From Geosiphon pyriformis (taxonomy: Eukaryota > Glomeromycota > Glomeromycetes > Archaeosporales > Geosiphonaceae), in contig JAAOMT010000145.1 of the NCBI GenBank assembly GCA_016748015.1, positions 1-22,227 of the forward strand: a DNA stretch of 22,227 nucleotides. Direction: 5' to 3'. The position numbers and the translations under genes were made by a program. This document shows positions 8,170 to 18,787 of this stretch, one piece after another; the first letter of the stretch is position 1, and each line of letters begins with the position of its first letter. The notes beneath the pieces are model-generated. The model was not told the DNA's origin and made no database searches. It saw only the letters and a list, made by a program, of their open reading frames with translations.

Positions 8170-8197
8170 CAGTCAAATCTGAGATAACCCATAACTT
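8170..8197 (+). repeat. Left terminal inverted repeat
   Basis: The outer repeat of the transposon begins CAGTCAAATCTGAGATAACC directly after a TA dinucleotide. It pairs with 10889-10916 on the opposite strand. Such termini are bound and cut by the transposase. Confidence 0.9.
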
Positions 8198-8322
8198 GTA
8201 ATAAGCCATAGCATTTTGAATCTACCAATTTGGTAGTTAAAAACTTCCTATGTTTATAACCCATACCTGTGATACCCAATAACCCATAACTTTTCACTGT
8301 CAGTATGAGTTATCTCAGGTGC
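8170..8322. repeat. Left-end foldback with internal inverted copy
   Basis: The terminal CTGAGATAACCCATAAC block is met again in inverted orientation near 8305-8320 (GAGTTATCTCAGG). The sequence between contains several further AACCCATA motifs. The end could therefore fold into a hairpin of about 150 nt. The same arrangement occurs at the right end, so it appears to be a designed property of the element's termini rather than chance. Confidence 0.7.
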
Positions 8323-8443
8323 TAGATTTAGTTTAAATTCTGCTAATTTTGGTAAAATTGCAGTAAAACAAACCAATATTTCCATGACTAAAAATGCTAT
8401 ATGATAATATAACATCACTTATTCAACAGAATAATTATATATC

Positions 8444-9098
8444 GTGTAAGTAATCAAGTCAGAGTTTCGAATTGTCCCAAGTTTTAAATTATCATCAATT
8501 GTGTGAGTAATCAAGTCAGAGTTTTGAATTGTCCCAAGTTTTAAATTATTACTGACCTTGTAAATAATTAAGTCGGAGTTTCAAATTGTTCCAAGTTCTA
8601 AATTACCATCAATTGTATAAGTAATTAAGTCGAAGTTTCAAATTGTCCCTAGTTCTAAATTATCATTGATTGTATGAGTAATCAAGTCGGAGTTTCAAAT
8701 TGTCCCAAATTTTAAATTATTACTAACCTTGTAAGTAATCAAGTCAGAGTTTTGAATTGTTCCAAGTTCTAAATTATCATCAATTTGTATAAGTAATCAA
8801 GTCAGAGTTTTGAATTGTCCCAAGTTTTAAATTATTACTAATCTTGTGAGTAATCAAGTCAGAGTTTCAAATTGTCCCAAGTTCTACAATTATTATCGAT
8901 TGTATAAGTAATTAAGTTGGAGTTTCAAATTGTTCCAAGTTCTAAATTATTATCAATTGTGTGAGTAATCAAATCAGAGTTTCGAATTGTTTCAAACTCT
9001 AAATTATCATTGATTGTATGAGTAATCAAATCAAAGTTTTGAATTGTTTCAAGTTTTAAATTATTATCAATTGTGTGAGTAATCAAGTCGAATTTTTG
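8444..9098 (+). repeat. 57-bp minisatellite, 12 copies
   Basis: The landmark AGTAATCAAG (or a close variant) starts at 8449, 8506, 8563, 8620, 8677, 8734, 8792, 8849, 8907, 8964, 9021 and 9078. The period is 57 bp, with 58 twice. A unit reads roughly GTAAGTAATCAAGTCAGAG, then TTTCGAATTGTCCCAAGTTC, then TAAATTATCATCAATT. Two tail variants occur: ATCATCAATTGT-like in most units and ATTACTAACCTTGT-like in units 2, 5 and 7. The last unit is truncated. The array lies wholly inside the transposon, between its left end and the transposase. Whether it serves as a subterminal protein-binding array or is passive expansion cannot be told from sequence alone. Confidence 0.95.
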
Positions 9099-9157
9099 GA
9101 TCAGCTCTAATTGATCAGAGTCTTAATTGTACTTTTTCTTTGCCTTTTAATTCTACC

Positions 9158-10744
9158 ATGTTTAATAGCAAAAAGCATGCTATCTCTTTAGCTTTGCGTT
9201 CTGCAAAGTCGTGAGAATGCTACACTTTATGATATGCTTATGGTGCTTGATTGATATCATGCAAATAATAAAAACCAATCAAAAACTGCAAGGCACTTTA
9301 AGGAAAACAGTTTTCCATACATGAAACAGCCTCTAGTTTTGGCTTGGGTCAAAAATGAACCAAATCTTTGTCTATGAGCAAATAAAATGCGTGACTTGAC
9401 TAGCAAGTATATATGCACAGTATGTAATCCTGACTTTGATAAAGCATTTGTTATTTTTGTTCAAGAGACAGAATCGCATGGAATAATACTTACTGGAGAT
9501 GTAATTCGAGCTGCTGACATAAAGTTCTATGATCAATTGGATATTCCAGAAAATGAGTGCCAAAAAACTATCCAATGGCTGGCTTGAGCTTTAAAGACCA
9601 TGTTGAATTGCATTTACTTCACTTTTATGGTGAGTATCATCAGCCAATGTTGAGCATATTGAAGATAAGTGAGTGTATGTAATAACACTTCTTGCTGATT
9701 AGAAGTTATGTAATATTTTCAACATGGATGAAACTGCACTATTTTATGCCATATTACCAAATTGAGGTCTTGCTACAATACCACGTTATGGCACCAAACA
9801 ATCAAAAGTGCGACTGACACTTGCCTTTACAACCAATGGTGATGGAACTGAGTGTTTGCTACCACTTATCCATGCTGTTTTCAAAAGAAAATAGGAGAGC
9901 AACTTGGTTTCTAGTATTATTCAAACATTCATGCTTAGATGACTGGTGATATTTTTCGACAATGGCTTGTTGATTGGGATTATCAGCTGCATAAAAAAAA
10001 CCAAAACATATTGTTGTTAGTAGACAATTTTGCTAATCACAACTATTTTACAAGATCTATTACAAATATTCATGTAGAACGGTTTGCATCTAACTTGACA
10101 GCATATATTTAGCCTATGTCGACATTTTTTTTATCATGCATTGGATTTTTTTGATGATGGTGCTGATGATATTTATGCAATCAACCAACTTCAAGCAATG
10201 TGTCTAATTTATAGGGCATAAAAAAATGTTTCAAATGAAATAATTGCTTATTGATGGCACAAAGTTGGCATTTTTCCAATTAATACAAATGACAACTTTT
10301 AGAATGAAACTGCAAACTTGGAAATAATAGTCAATTATAATCAAAAGATAGTATTAGAAAAGATTAAGGATTGTTACAAAGAGTTCAATGGTGTACAGCC
10401 AAATCATACATACTTATCAATTGAAAAGTTTGGTAAATCTATCTGAAGTAAACAATACAATTACTTTGGAACATCTAAATGATGATGAGATTGCAAATTA
10501 TATTATAACAAATCGTAAAACAAAGCATGATAGCTCTAATAAAAAACAAGAGGTACAGAAAATAATGACTATTAAGGATGCACTAACTGCTATTACAAAT
10601 CTTGAACAGTTTATGGAGCTTAAAAATAGCAAGGAATTTTATGATGCAGTTAGTAAGCTTGCTTATGTTAAATGTATACTTCATAAGAGAATACAAGATA
10701 AACAAAAACAAACAACTTTTACAAGTTTCTTTAATATTGCATGA
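9158..10744 (+). pseudogene. Broken pogo/Tigger transposase (CENP-B HTH + DDE_1)
   Basis: When intact this family binds the element's ends and carries out cut-and-paste transposition in the nucleus. The first ATG (9158) opens text with KKHAISLALRSAK. A helix-turn-helix N-terminal part follows (TARHFKENSFPYMKQP near 9290), then a Tc5/CENP-B-type second DNA-binding domain (PDFDKAFVIFVQE at about 9430, then GDVIRAA). The DDE_1 catalytic domain shows NMDETALFY, with the first acidic residue at 9727-9729, and LLLVDNFANHNYF, with the second at 10023-10025. Around 10105-10130 the text goes from NLTAYI-stop-PM almost directly to the region of LDFFDDGADDIYAINQ. The block expected to carry the third acidic residue is missing or scrambled. 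About nine in-frame stops (for example before ECYT, after VLD, after NLCL and after HAVFKRK) and several frameshifts (near 9590, 10140 and 10430) interrupt it. The C-terminal 118 codons from 10388 are open and end FTSFFNIA. Confidence 0.88.
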
Positions 10745-10837
10745 ACTATTTAAAGATTTTTATAAGAATATGCAAATAAATTTATTTTTTAATAATATTA
10801 TATCTATTTTTATTATATGTATACTATATATACTTAA

Positions 10838-10916
10838 ACCTGAGAAAACCCATAACCTTTAATAACCCATAGCAATTTGTATCCACCAAGGGTATGGGTT
10901 ATCTCAGGTTTGACTG
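10838..10916. repeat. Right-end foldback
   Basis: ACCTGAGAAAACCCATAACC at 10838-10857 is inverted relative to GGTATGGGTTATCTCAGGT at 10891-10909, with additional ACCCATA copies between. This mirrors the left end and gives the right terminus its own hairpin potential. Confidence 0.75.
10889..10916 (-). repeat. Right terminal inverted repeat
   Basis: Read on the minus strand this end begins CAGTCAAACCTGAGATAACC. It differs from the left end by one base in the first 20 and is followed outside by TA at 10917-10918. Confidence 0.9.
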
Positions 10917-10957: not shown

Positions 10958-12231
10958 GGCATTAAATCATGTGCTTTTATTTGAAGACAACAAAGAAAAC
11001 AATTTTCAAGAGATGTTTGATAAAAAATTGTGGATAGCAGTAATTAATGACATTGAGAAACAATTTGTTTCATATCGACTTTTTATTAATAATATTTTAC
11101 TTTGCCATGTTATGTTCAAGGTAATTTTTTGGGTAATATTAACAATATTTTTTTCTTTTAGATTAATTTTTTTAAATTACAGGCTGCGAATTACACATTT
11201 GAAGATTGTAAGTTGCTTCTGCGAAAATGGCAACAGCAAATGGATAATACTATTCTTATTGAGTTTTTCGAGAGTATGTAAGTAAATATTTTCTAATTTT
11301 TTTTATAATTAACAATATTTTTTATTTAAGTTTACAACAATCTTGGTGGAATCAAAGAGATCAGAATGAAAATAATTTTGTTCATGAAGTAGTACCTATA
11401 TTAAAATCTTTCTTTGCTTTAAATAAATTACTTGAATGCAATTGGTAAGTAATATATTTCTACTTAATTTTTAATAAATTATTAATTCTACTATTTTTGT
11501 TGATCAATTGATATATTGGATGCATCAACACATCGTAAAAGAAAATTCGATCCTTCACTTCAAGGCAGAAAACCCGATTTCACCATTTTTACATCAACAA
11601 TGAATAAAAAGGAATTTTTGTTTGTGGGGGAAGTGAAATTGCCAAAACATCGTTATTCAAAGGAATTATTTAATGAAGGATTGTTTGGACAAGATGATTA
11701 ATAATGGTATAGAAAGCAAAGAGGCAATCGTTTGTGGGCTTCTTGTTCAAGGTAAGTTTTTGGAATTATAACATTTTATAATATTTTATAATTACATTTT
11801 TTTTCAATACTTAGGATTCCAATGTTCACTGTATGCAATAGATTTGCAATATGATGGAGTTTATAGAATGATTTTTTTGGGTCAATTTTTACTTCCTCGA
11901 AATAATTATGACTTTGGAGTATTGCCCAATGTTATTCAAGTATTGATGAAAGCAAAGGTTAGTACAGACTTTTTTGCTATTTTAAAGATTTGTATTTTTA
12001 ACATCTTGTAATTTTATTTCACAATTATTGTAACGAATACGTGTGAACTTTGTATCAAAAGTTTGCGAAGTTCAAACTTTAAAGCTAAAGTTATTTTAAA
12101 TAAGCAAGATCCGATAGATGGACAAGAAGAAGATAAATTACCAAAACACCATCACGTAAATTGATGATTTGGAATTCATATCATACCTCTATTAAGATTT
12201 CAGCTTCGAGTCGAAGTGTAGATAAGCTGTA
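10958..12231 (+). pseudogene. PD-(D/E)XK-fold-like multi-exon gene, frameshifted
   Basis: Exons can be traced at 10958-11120, 11183-11277, 11331-11444, about 11510-11751 and 11815-11957. Their introns are 53-63 nt long, with matching phases and GTAAGT-like donors. The text runs LLFEDNKENNFQEMF, then KLLLRKWQQQM, then SWWNQRDQNENNF, then DASTHRKRK...GRKPDF...EFLFVGEVKLPKH, then KEAIVCGLLVQGF, YDGVYRMIFLGQFLLPR. GRKPDF followed by GEVK matches the Asp and Glu-x-Lys of PD-(D/E)XK nuclease folds, and the GVYRM..LPR tail fits a family I know from Mucoromycota and Glomeromycota, sometimes linked to Crinkler-like proteins. Two faults suggest loss of function. No AG acceptor is visible between 11450 and 11530, although the donor at 11445 is strong. 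The frame also shifts near 11678, between FNEG and DCLDKMINN. The last part (about 12030-12231) has two overlapping frames, one ending HHHVN at 12164 and another containing NSYHTSIKIS that ends at 12231, so it may hold a further shift. The transposon ends 41 bp upstream. Nuclease activity is inferred, not shown. Confidence 0.6.
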
Positions 12232-15344: not shown

Positions 15345-16756
15345 TTATACATTAGATTTATTAATGTGTCCTCCCCTTAACTTGTTTTGTGAGATTATTT
15401 TTTTAATCATATCTTTGTTAAAGTTCTCACAATTCCTCATGTCTTTTCCAAAATATGGACCATAAGTAAAATATTTATCTTTATCAGTACTCTTGGTTTC
15501 CCTCGAAAAGTAAATCTCATGTATACGAACATTACACGCCTAGAAAGTTTCAAAAAAGTTAATAGTAAAATTTATCTCTTTATTGGCAAATGTAAAAATT
15601 CATACCGGATTTTCGTTGAATAAATGTGTGTTAAAACACTTGTAAACAAGTGGGTCCAAATTTTGCCCACATTCACAGTTTGATTTTTCCTCAGATATAT
15701 CATGTGCTTTAGCATCAATCCAAAATTCTGGTTTAAAGTGTCTATATTGTTCATATGCTATAAGCAGTGATTTTTCTGGTTTCTCAATTTCATCATTCCA
15801 TTTCAAAAAAATTTTTACTCCTCTTATTGGTATATTTGGTAACAAATCATCTGCAATTGTTAGACGATAAATCTTTTTTATAAATTTCAAACGAGAAATT
15901 TAGTAAAAAAAATTTTGGATTATGCTCAAATTACTTATTGTAAACACTCATTAATTTATTAATTACCTCAAGATTGGCTTGAACAAAAGCAGCAAAAATT
16001 TCATTTCCTATTCTTGGCTGGCCAAAAGTAACAACAATGGGCCTCTTTTTCGGTTGATATTTTTTCAAGAACTCGAGAGCAGCAAAGACTACATATGCTT
16101 TTTATAAAAAGAGTACCTTAAATTTAAAATATATTTTTCAATTTCATAATTTTTTTTGATTGATAATAAACTTACGGCCGCTTTGACCGAATCCAGTAAA
16201 GTCAAAGTTTGTAAAATTGTATTGTATCGGCGAACTTTTCAAATAAACTTGAAGTCCATTGAAAAAGTTAGTTTCAAAGTAATTTTTCCACTTAATGTTG
16301 TAGTTTTTCCCGACCCAAGCACCAGTTACGTCTGGGAATTGAACTATTGCAGATAAATCTTGTACATGTTGTCCCAATGCTGCTAAAGAATTGTAATTGA
16401 GGTGTGCAAAACTAAACGTGATTTTTGATTCATCATGTGTCAAAAAAGAAACCGAGGCTTGACGATCAACTACAGTATTTTGGTAAAAAATGATTAGAAG
16501 TCGCAAAATTTAAATTCCCCAATAAGACAAAGTTTCATTGGTTATTATAACTCTGTTGATAGCAGTGCGATATCCAGGCCAAATTTGCCTTGTTAGCAAA
16601 TAGTTTTAGAAGCTCTTTATCATTAACTAAGGTTTTCACATAACGAGGACCCGTAAATTTTCTTGATTTGATGATCGTGATTTCGGATTTATCATTTATA
16701 TCTTTTTTTTGGGAAACTTTGAGATTATTTATTGAAAACTTTTTGACTGGTAGCAT
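15345..16756 (-). CDS. Class-3-lipase-fold protein lacking catalytic Ser
   Basis: Five exons join in phase: 16756-16552, 16469-16176, 16097-15967, 15872-15606 and 15539-15345. They give a 363-residue frame ended by TAA. Introns are 66-94 nt, with donors GTTATA, GTAAGT, GTAATT and GTATGA and AG acceptors; CTAAT and TACTAAA branch-point-like sites are visible. Class-3 lipases are alpha/beta hydrolases that cleave acylglycerols with a Ser-Asp-His triad. Recognisable blocks are LFANKANLAWISHC (about residue 50), ASVSF (about 73), FTGFGQSGPYVVFAALEF (159-176), TFGQPRIGNEIF (190-201), ADDLLPNIP (217-225) and YGPYFGKDMRNC near 325. The elbow normally reads G-H-S-x-G-G. Here it is G161-F-G-Q-S-G, so the nucleophile position is Gly163. 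Asp219 is kept. The histidine of the paralogue's HFGPYF is Thr324 here. It should therefore be an inactive, perhaps ligand-binding, lipase fold. The start at 16756 gives no signal peptide, so a 5' exon may be missing. The plus-strand paralogue begins 600 bp away, divergently transcribed. Confidence 0.75.
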
Positions 16757-16859
16757 CTGCTGAGGATGATGAATACACTCGAATTATTCATCATTTCGTA
16801 TCAAGAAGCAATGGATTTTTTCCAATTTTATTGATTTTGATTGTGACAAAAAAAATTAC

Positions 16860-16936
16860 CAAAGAATGAAAAAAATTATAGCTATAATTTGTAAAAAAAA
16901 AATTGATTTAAAGTACTTTATGAATTCTTTATACAT
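16860..16936 (-). other. Possible signal-peptide exon of lipase-like gene
   Basis: A minus-strand ATG at 16936 opens 25 codons reading MYKEFIKYFKSIFFLQII, then AIIFFIL, a good signal-peptide or anchor shape, followed by a G|GTAATT donor. It lies about 100 bp upstream of the first supported exon, whose start has an acceptor-like CCTCAGCAG at 16757-16765. The donor leaves phase 2 while that acceptor needs phase 0. Either the exon is unrelated, the acceptor differs, or a 1-nt lesion has occurred. Confidence 0.3.
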
Positions 16937-17356
16937 AATGTTTCTTTTTTTTTGAAAAGATCCTTTGTGAAATCTCATTTCAGTTTTGAAATTTATTCCG
17001 GTTATAGATAGAATATGTTTAATGCATATGCATTTATTTGTTTGAAATATCCCTGGATTTCTAAGCTTTTATTTGTCGATTATTAAACAAATATTCTAGT
17101 ATTTTGAATTGCAAAAAGTTTTGTCCCATTTTATACTTAGTTTTCAAATTTCAAAGTATATTTCCCGTGATCATCAAAGAATATAAGAAAATGTACAATC
17201 ATACGAGGAAAAAGTTTGGTTCAACCATTAATTAAGAAACACACACAAAAACCGATTAATATTGGTTCAAAATCTAGCTTTTTACTTTGACCATTGTTAT
17301 TTTTTTTTTAAAAAAAAATTGTAATTTTTTTAATTGCAAAATATATATGCCCAAAT
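16937..17356. promoter_or_regulatory. Shared divergent upstream region
   Basis: The two lipase-like genes face away from each other across this AT-rich interval, so it must hold both promoters if they are transcribed. An A/T run ending in ATATATAT lies about 10 nt before the plus-strand ATG. That is too close to be a TATA box in the usual sense. No specific factor site was recognised. Confidence 0.4.
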
Positions 17357-18787
17357 ATGATTCATAAAATTTTAATCTTTTTGTCCTTTACTCTAATTTC
17401 TCTTTTTCATTTCCAATCTACGAATGAATTTAATATTATAGCTGAGAGCGAACGAATAAGAACTCACAATGAATTTCATTTAAATTCACTAAAAGAAAAT
17501 TTTTCTCTCAGAAACACTCAAACCTCTATTCAGCGATTTTCTATTTCAGCCAGAGGTCTTGATAATAAAGTGGTTGGAATTGGAAACGATAAAGATATAA
17601 TATTTGTAAAAGAAATTGTTGAAGATGCAAAAGTTTTGGCTCAATTGTCATCGAGTGCAACTTTTTCATGGAGAGCGTCTTGTCAACAAATCTTCCCAAA
17701 CTATAAAAACTCCTATCTAAGAGGTACTAGTGATTACCGAGTTTGGGGTCAGCAAAAATTTATTCTTATATTTGGGGAGGTTGGAGTTCTTTTTTGAAAT
17801 CAAAAAATAAAAAGCTATATTCAATGAGATTCCATGGCTCTAAACTTTTGAAACATCACTAAAGCAGTAATGTTTTCTGAAAAGACAATTTTTTTCGGTA
17901 CTGTGGAACAAGATTTTAATTATATTACAGTTGAGCCGTCACACGGAAGATGGGATGCTATTCCATATCCATATGTAGAAGACGAGTTGTCTCTAAAATA
18001 TTTTATAATTATTGGGAACGTTGCTCAGCTCAATTTTGGGAAAAATTCAAAGATTCTGAAAAGAAAAATTATTTAACAAAATTTGTTAATAAATATACAT
18101 TTACAGGCTTTGGTTTTGGAGCTGGTAGATCTAATTTAATTTATGATTACAAAATTCAAAAAAAAACTTTATGATTTAAAAAAAAATTTCAATTTTAGTT
18201 TTAGCGGTATTTGCTTCACTTGAATATAAAAGAAATTATACGGAAACACCAGTTTCCCTTATTACTTTTGGTCAATCACGAATTGGAAATGAACTATTTG
18301 TTCATTATGTGGAACATATGCTTGATAAAACCTGGAGGGTGACTTATGGTGATGATTGGATGCCTAATTTTCCATTTGAAGGTTATAATCGTGAAATAAA
18401 GATGCCAACAGGTTCAAGAACAAGGTATCTCAAAATGTATACAGACACTTGCGAAAAGAATTTTGGATAGAACCTGTATGTGATTTTCTTAAGCCAAAAA
18501 TTTATTTGTGTTATCATACGGCTACTTGACATGAACATGAGATAATTTCAAAATTTTCAAAATGAGTTTTAAAAAGCCCCCCAATTTTACTTCTTTATAA
18601 TTGTCCAAAAAAATATTTTCAGGAATGTAACGGGAGAAATTATTTTCATAAAGCGATATATTCAGGAATCACCTGGGAAGAATTAATTATGAATTACAGA
18701 CAATCGCACCCTGATGAACCACATTTTGGTCCATATTTTAGGCATACCATGCTTCAAAAATGCCCTCTTATTAAAAAGCCTAAATGA
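17357..18787 (+). pseudogene. Secreted class-3-lipase-like paralogue, frameshifted
   Basis: Exons are 17357-17723, 17868-18124, 18199-18475 and 18623-18787. Donors are GTACTA, GTAGAT and GTATGT, and the acceptors AG, one of them a tandem AAGCAG at 17863-17867. Phases match at each junction. The start MIHKILIFLSFTLISLF is a clear signal peptide, so the protein would be secreted. Blocks match the minus-strand paralogue one for one: VLAQLSSSATFSWRASCQQ, FFGTVEQDF, FTGFGFGAVLAVFASLEY, ITFGQSRIGNELF, GDDWMPNFPF, RHLRKEFWIEP and PHFGPYFRHTM. The elbow is G-F-G-F-G-A, so the catalytic serine is glycine (codon 18112-18114). The Asp (18354-18356) and the His of HFGPYF (18722-18724) remain. Two frameshifts break it: one in the A-rich stretch near 17990-18000 and one near 18425-18445, between RYLKM and YRHLRKEFW. 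Unless these are sequencing errors, the gene is dead. Its serine loss is shared with the intact copy and so predates its decay. Confidence 0.7.

Follow-up and report, generated by a model that had tools for sequence, protein, structure and literature searches.

We analyzed a 22,227-nucleotide stretch of Geosiphon pyriformis DNA (contig JAAOMT010000145.1, positions 1-22227, listed here as contig C52 and called the window), together with the 124.7-Mb assembly of 406 contigs that was searched as the genome. Two divergent class-3 lipase-like genes lie at 15348-18784 of the window, G1 on the minus strand and G2 on the plus strand, and both encode glycine at the position of the nucleophilic serine. 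The G1 elbow reads G-F-G-Q-S-G (16177-16194, minus strand), within the context T-G-F-G-Q-S-G, and is followed by a phase-1 intron of 78 bp (16098-16175) in the spliced model and then by P-Y-V-V-F-A-A-L-E. The G2 elbow reads G-F-G-F-G-A (18106-18123, plus strand), preceded by threonine as in G1, and is followed by a modelled phase-1 intron of 74 bp (18125-18198) and V-L-A-V-F-A-S-L-E.

The proteins are class-3 (Rhizomucor-type) lipase-like proteins with glycine at the nucleophilic serine. In an alignment with the Rhizomucor miehei lipase 1TGL, the elbow glycine of G1 falls on the serine of TGHSLGG and the catalytic aspartate is kept, and a G2 profile aligned with the secretory lipase 5gw8 likewise places glycine on the nucleophilic serine. 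The entry for 5gw8 reads "hypothetical secretory lipase (family 3)", and we take it to be of the Malassezia type. These alignments bear out the elbows described in an initial annotation of the window, with glycine in place of serine at the same codon of both genes. The exons downstream of the elbow match Pfam Lipase_3 (E = 3.4e-7 for G1 and 8.4e-10 for G2), and profiles built from eight proteins of each type matched solved class-3 lipases with best E values of 2.6e-5 (G1) and 2.1e-10 (G2). All 16 spliced proteins scanned, from 8 of 18 G1 and 8 of 21 G2 loci in the genome, matched PF01764 at E ≤ 0.01, with the first members scoring 44.3 and 68.1 bits against a curated cut-off of 22; beyond Lipase_3, no Pfam family was matched in these 16 proteins at the same threshold.

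State of the window copy

The alignable coding exons of G1, taken from the spliced model and from a copy on contig C211 that is 94.5% identical, run in transcription order from 16756-16529 through 16457-16176, 16097-15967 and 15872-15606 to 15539-15348 on the minus strand, with the stop codon TAA directly after the last exon (15345-15347). The junction of the first exon is uncertain, since the 5' splice site of the C211 model is missing in the window. Upstream, an N-terminal stretch with a hydrophobic segment (16757-16936) is open in C211, where G1 begins MSKEFIKYFKSIFFLQIMAIIFFILW... and has a hydrophobic N-terminus; in the window it is interrupted by in-frame TAA codons at 16858 and 16786. 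A further in-frame ATG is found at 16978. The remains of G2 occupy 17357-18784 on the plus strand, with modelled exons at 17357-17723, 17865-18124, 18199-18509 and 18623-18784, followed by TGA, and the N-terminus is hydrophobic (MIHKILIFLSF...). A first frameshift lies within 17984-18000 (at 17984 by DNA alignment with C211 and at 17996 by the spliced model), and the spliced model places a second at 18435-18439, just 5' of the YRHLRKEFW motif bearing the triad histidine. A possible third near 18506 may be an effect of modelling. Between the divergent genes lies a shared 5' region (16937-17356).

The window region and C211 are 94.5% identical over 3,429 aligned columns. Their G1 genes differ by equal nonsynonymous (dN) and synonymous (dS) divergence, dN = dS = 0.034 (over 362 codons, 28.5 differences are nonsynonymous and 7.5 synonymous), and at about 3.3% the coding divergence is the same as in the full alignment (109 mismatches in 3,349 aligned bases), suggesting that the window copy evolves without visible constraint. 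To judge from its sequence, this copy is a relic that decays and drifts neutrally relative to its nearest copy. It is thus quite probable that the window locus itself is only a dying pseudogene pair, where the lost serine would carry no functional meaning. The N-terminal stops of G1, the lost 5' splice site, the frameshifts of G2 and the neutral divergence from C211 all favor this, as does the fact that G2 in C211 is itself cut, its homology ending inside the elbow at window position 18111. Against it, the small indels could stem from assembly errors, which could also lie behind the other lesions of the window, and exons 2-5 of G1 are open. Such decay would concern the window copy alone: in the genome, 13 of 18 G1 and 15 of 21 G2 models show neither stops nor frameshifts (the truncated G2 of C211 being among the latter), and the two families are constrained, as described below. 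Since the window copies are decaying, function has to be argued from the other copies.

Distribution and history of the serine loss

A search of the genome with the Pfam Lipase_3 profile gave 748 first-look candidates (150 scored) and at least 171 matches. Spliced models spanned the elbow in all 100 loci of a non-random sample, 72 of them found with G1 or G2 and 28 by the Pfam search; a stop or frameshift interrupts four of the models (L037, L050, L067 and L068). At the nucleophile position 65 loci have glycine and 21 serine, and the remaining 14 have alanine (5), aspartate (4), arginine (2), asparagine, phenylalanine or cysteine (1 each). The commonest elbow triplets were GHG (34 loci), GFG (22) and GHS (16). 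The loss of serine, which the initial annotation had described for the pair, is therefore not peculiar to it, and we rejected a loss private to the pair because serine-less elbows are common in the family and G1 and G2 are placed among them.

Several of the rarer elbows were located individually. GHA occurs in L052, L054, L081, L090 and L095, GHD in L043, L057 and L089, GHR in L092 and L118, and GHC in L080; aspartate or cysteine as the nucleophile would mean a different chemistry. A serine-less subgroup with the elbow GFGRAG comprises L028, L031, L032, L033, L038, L045, L048 and L050, seven of the eight lying on contigs C328 and C254. Unlike G1 and G2, this subgroup has no convincing catalytic histidine within the approximately 330 bases fetched past the exon.

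The intron directly after the elbow leaves room for a missing serine to result from wrong splicing or a faulty alignment. However, a phase-1 intron follows the elbow at the same position in 94 of the 100 loci, including 19 of the 21 with serine, where the serine lies upstream of it, so splicing of this intron conceals no serine in G1 or G2. Together with the independent profiles that put glycine on the lipase serine, this makes such an artefact highly improbable, and we rejected it.

A first tree (129 rows, 109 columns), whose bootstrap had not settled, was built with L001, L004 and L014 of G2, L013 and L018 of G1, and L068, L099, L109, L116 and L120 of the sample left out. It recovered G1 as one clade (support 100/99) and G2, including the decayed locus L067, as another (96/89), both within a 64-row clade (100/95) that contains four serine rows. 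Eight of the ten rows with GHSLGG formed a clade of their own (100/90) in this tree and did not do so in a second tree, built by a quick method and rooted with 1TGL. In the rooted tree the root state is serine and at least ten changes between serine and other residues are needed; parsimony reconstructs serine-less ancestors for G1, for G2 and for the two together. Single serine rows stand amid serine-less relatives (L053, L056, L058, L062, L075, L082, L093 and L104), which are possibly regains of serine or relics of several losses. A sister relationship of G1 and G2 was also tried and did not come out firmly in these trees.

The proposal of the initial annotation that the serine was lost in a common ancestor thus agrees with parsimony, although the 109 columns available make the deep forks weak and a single loss predating the divergence of G1 from G2 is a reconstruction that is not firm. 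Separate losses in the two lineages, with the shared glycine a convergence at an often-changing position, would fit the ten or more changes on the rooted tree and the presence of alanine, aspartate, arginine, asparagine, phenylalanine and cysteine at the same position. They would also fit the placement of serine rows next to the pair, L075 being nearest to G2 in both trees and L053 standing next to G1 in the rooted tree, though elsewhere in the first. We nevertheless regard separate losses as doubtful, as parsimony gives a serine-less ancestor with later regains and the 64-row clade holding both G1 and G2 has only four serine rows.

Recurrence and conservation of the pair

Searching the genome with each protein and mapping the matches in the fetched stretches identified 18 G1 and 21 G2 loci, along with two decayed G2-like loci (L067 and L068) whose neighbors lie outside those stretches. 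Thirteen head-to-head G1/G2 pairs were found on 13 contigs (the window, C211, C355, C301, C291, C300, C92, C88, C315, C240, C214, C226 and C239), a recurrence that the initial annotation did not see; the family and its recurring pair are a real finding that extends beyond the window copy. The aligned model starts are 601 bp apart in the window and 142-1153 bp apart in the 12 other pairs, the two lowest values (L003 and L004) being due to models whose start lies across a long modelled intron. In seven of the 13 pairs (L002, L005, L006, L007, L008, L011 and L012) neither aligned model has a frameshift or stop, some of these lesion-free models stopping short of the N-terminus. Within the few kilobases fetched, G1 stands alone at L010, L015, L017 and L018 and G2 at L016 and L019-L023. 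At C302:74400-80700 (L009) G2, G1 and G2 follow one another in tandem on one strand, in a rearranged layout related to the head-to-head pair.

Tree distances among G1 copies were correlated with those among their G2 partners (r = 0.82, p = 0.00015, 20,000 permutations) in nine of the 13 pairs, the test omitting L001, L004, L013 and L014; without one of two close pairs the correlation was r = 0.54 (p = 0.006). The recurrence of the pair and its correlated distances indicate that it was mostly copied and kept as a unit, and the head-to-head arrangement appears to be inherited as such. The genes could instead be independent, their layout carried along by a shared promoter and segment duplication with no joint function. 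The short shared 5' region and the unpaired copies are compatible with this, and correlated trees are expected from block duplication alone. We consider independence somewhat unlikely, given that the layout survives in deeply diverged copies, seven G1 proteins being 47-54% identical to the G1 of C211, and that both genes have undamaged models in the seven pairs named above.

Within each lineage the serine-less state is kept, as the initial annotation had supposed. The nucleophile codon specifies glycine in 18 of 18 G1 loci (GGT in nine, GGC in seven, GGA and GGG in one each) and in all 19 readable G2 loci (GGT in 11, GGA in seven, GGC in one), a count that leaves out L001, which is cut, and L004, whose model lacks the elbow exon and has a stray TCT aligned there. 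The use of several codons for glycine alone suggests a trace of selection on the residue. The elbow histidine is phenylalanine in 17 of 18 G1 and 19 of 20 readable G2 copies. Codon models of 16 rows each, with broken codons masked, the window included, and L013 and L018 (G1) and L001, L004, L014, L016 and L023 (G2) omitted, gave a dN/dS ratio (omega) of 0.329 for G1 and 0.285 for G2. Log-likelihoods were -10266.4 with omega free and -10461.3 with omega = 1 for G1 (difference 194.8) and -10716.9 and -10982.2 for G2 (difference 265.2), and median pairwise NG86 ratios over 120 pairs each were 0.42 and 0.52. Both families are under purifying selection, with omega far from 1 in these serine-less members. 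Decay of the whole family was rejected on these values and stands for the window copy.

The initial annotation also spoke of a lost triad, and here the data differ: the nucleophile alone is lost. Scored as catalytic class-3 lipases, G1 and G2 lack G-x-S-x-G and have the aspartate and histidine. The catalytic aspartate is kept in 18 of 18 G1 and 20 of 20 G2 copies and the histidine in 18 of 18 and 19 of 20, the exception being the decayed L014. Such near-invariance would be expected if the proteins were still enzymes, with the Asp-His dyad activating water or another nucleophile, or with the serine two residues past the elbow glycine of G1 (GFGES), present in 17 of 18 copies, as a surrogate. 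In the wider sample, aspartate and histidine motifs were scanned with regular expressions, which miss variants and catch chance strings, the histidine pattern having taken some unconvincing ones. The aspartate motif was found in 49 of 65 glycine rows, 15 of 21 serine rows and 11 of 14 others, and the histidine motif in 54, 16 and 10, respectively; the figures for glycine rows relative to serine rows point in the same direction. Yet a two-residue shift would break an otherwise ungapped lipase alignment, and in G2 that position is glycine in all but one of the 19 readable copies, the decayed one having glutamate. Moreover, according to part of PMC8813719, members of the EDS1 family retain S-D-H and yet have no enzymatic activity, so retention of the dyad does not by itself imply catalysis. 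Remaining catalysis is therefore, in our view, improbable.

Features compatible with export were found in both types. A hydrophobic stretch follows an in-frame methionine near the start in 15 of 18 G1 and 16 of 21 G2 loci, with best 17-residue hydropathy values of 1.6-4.1 and 1.2-2.7; this call is a reading of hydropathy rather than the output of a predictor, and no control was run. The open part of G1 in the window has no such stretch, and two G1 and five G2 models have no upstream methionine. In the 15 G1 proteins net positive charge comes before the stretch, resembling a signal anchor; in six G2 proteins the stretch begins at one of the first four residues, resembling a signal peptide. Six cysteines are kept in each eight-protein alignment (C65, C277, C279, C290, C302 and C337 in A1 of G1; C113, C297, C299, C307, C319 and C361 in A2 of G2), which fits export. 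Export of both types is plausible from these features, and the secretion proposed for at least one protein in the initial annotation would extend to both, on the strength of their N-termini.

Further features were recorded outside the lipase-like genes. A decayed DDE_1-type transposon occupies window positions 8170-10916 on the plus strand (DDE_1 match at 7.7e-10 with stops read as X, many of them in frame), and its similar ends, CAGTCAAA-CTGAGATAACCCATA, near 8170 and 10916 are inverted relative to each other. Within these ends, a tandem array at 8430-9089 has 11.5 copies of a 57-bp unit with 81% matches. Window positions 11510-12000 gave a weak DUF6826 match below the cut-off (E = 0.0089, stops read as X). 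The sole small-subunit rRNA match in the genome, on contig C320 (L124), differs from the search pattern by one letter in a stretch that is normally invariant and is perhaps an altered or pseudogene copy. An arbuscular-mycorrhiza primer site had no exact match in the genome. Of the primer sites looked for in the C320 rRNA, two had one mismatch, one had four, one universal site was exact, and a large-subunit site was not found.

Interpretation and known parallels

In the interpretation that we favor, G1 and G2 would be two divergent branches of a large and old class-3 lipase-like family in which serine gave way to glycine while aspartate, histidine and six cysteines were kept. The proteins would be exported or surface-anchored and no longer ordinary serine hydrolases, and selection would preserve the two divergent genes as a unit with jointly acting products, which perhaps form a heterodimer that binds lipids or serves as a scaffold, or act as decoys of lipase-directed host factors. 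We give a probability of roughly 50% to G1 and G2 being non-hydrolytic proteins that keep the fold, are exported and function as a pair. The non-catalytic roles suggested in the initial annotation (lipid binding, decoy or regulation) are still candidate ones.

Several observations weigh against this interpretation. It is not obvious why an idle active site should retain its aspartate and histidine, and block duplication by itself could yield correlated G1 and G2 trees. Within the fetched stretches, five of 18 G1 and eight of 21 G2 loci lie outside head-to-head pairs, and six of the 13 pairs, the window copy among them, have at least one damaged member. In the listed low-dS pairs other than window/C211, NG86 ratios are moderate (0.38-0.84) and above the codon-model values. 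The rows nearest to the pair, L075 and in one tree L053, bear serine. Finally, it is from sequence that we infer the inactivity, location and physical interaction of the proteins and, with them, their role.

The setting may be informative. Passages of PMC12574304 and PMC9453076 describe Glomeromycotina as lacking genes for fatty-acid synthesis, and the former reports no cytosolic fatty acid synthase in their genomes. A fungal fatty-acid-synthase family had no match in the genome searched here, in a search that among 14 control genomes matched one bacterium alone and whose sensitivity on fungi was not shown; the negative fits Glomeromycotina. If this setting is right, G1 and G2 belong to a fungus living on host lipids. 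It is conceivable, although we think it unlikely, that in a fungus showing no fatty-acid-synthase match a large share of the lipase family became serine-less, exported proteins, and that one divergent pair, inherited as a two-gene module, encodes a dedicated heterodimer for handling or sensing lipids of the host or for interfering with its lipase-like factors. Were that true, the pair would parallel EDS1-type pairs in design on the fungal side, and part of what is counted as lipases in such fungi would be non-lipases. Glomeromycotina genomes have on average 189 lipases according to PMC12574304, whose passages on these counts say nothing of a lost nucleophile. Published counts may therefore take in proteins unable to be serine lipases, and if many members lack the nucleophile, counts used to describe symbiotic fungi, such as those in these passages, would mislead. 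If the nucleophile is widely lost, the family might serve in lipid handling or host signaling without hydrolysis. A search of the open-access literature found no paper on serine-less class-3 lipases in such fungi, a weak negative as most subscription papers fall outside it. The recurring pair is a testable object, with the prediction that G1 and G2 bind each other and do not cut esters.

Among known systems, class-3 lipases of filamentous fungi (1TGL, 5gw8 and feruloyl esterase A) are domain homologs of G1 and G2. The regions of the elbow, TFGQPR-G and the aspartate align, and the histidine region (H..EYW) aligns with G1 as a weak, non-significant piece. Unlike these lipases, G1 and G2 have glycine for serine, phenylalanine for the elbow histidine in most copies, extra N- and C-terminal parts, and paired genes.

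Neuroligin-type cholinesterase-like adhesion proteins are surface proteins with an alpha/beta-hydrolase fold that have lost the catalytic serine and act by binding. They belong to a different family, of the carboxylesterase type, and no carboxylesterase-type (cholinesterase-like) domain was matched by Pfam in the 16 G1 and G2 proteins.

Among solved structures, the EDS1 family of lipase-like plant immune proteins is the closest parallel in style. In a profile search of the Protein Data Bank, the EDS1 chain 8b28 was matched at E = 7.6e-4 (G1) and 5.4e-4 (G2), and EDS1 chains overall at 5e-4 to 6e-3; the best fungal lipases matched more strongly. EDS1-family proteins have a C-terminal EP domain and, in the part of PMC8813719 cited above, keep S-D-H, whereas G1 and G2 have Lipase_3 only, a hydrophobic N-terminus and no serine; the EP domain was not matched by Pfam in the 16 proteins at E ≤ 0.01. 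By these sequence comparisons G1 and G2 are not members of the EDS1 family. As described in that source, EDS1, PAD4 and SAG101 are scaffolds without enzymatic activity that form heterodimers largely via their lipase-like domains, and by analogy the G1/G2 pair may work in a similar way.

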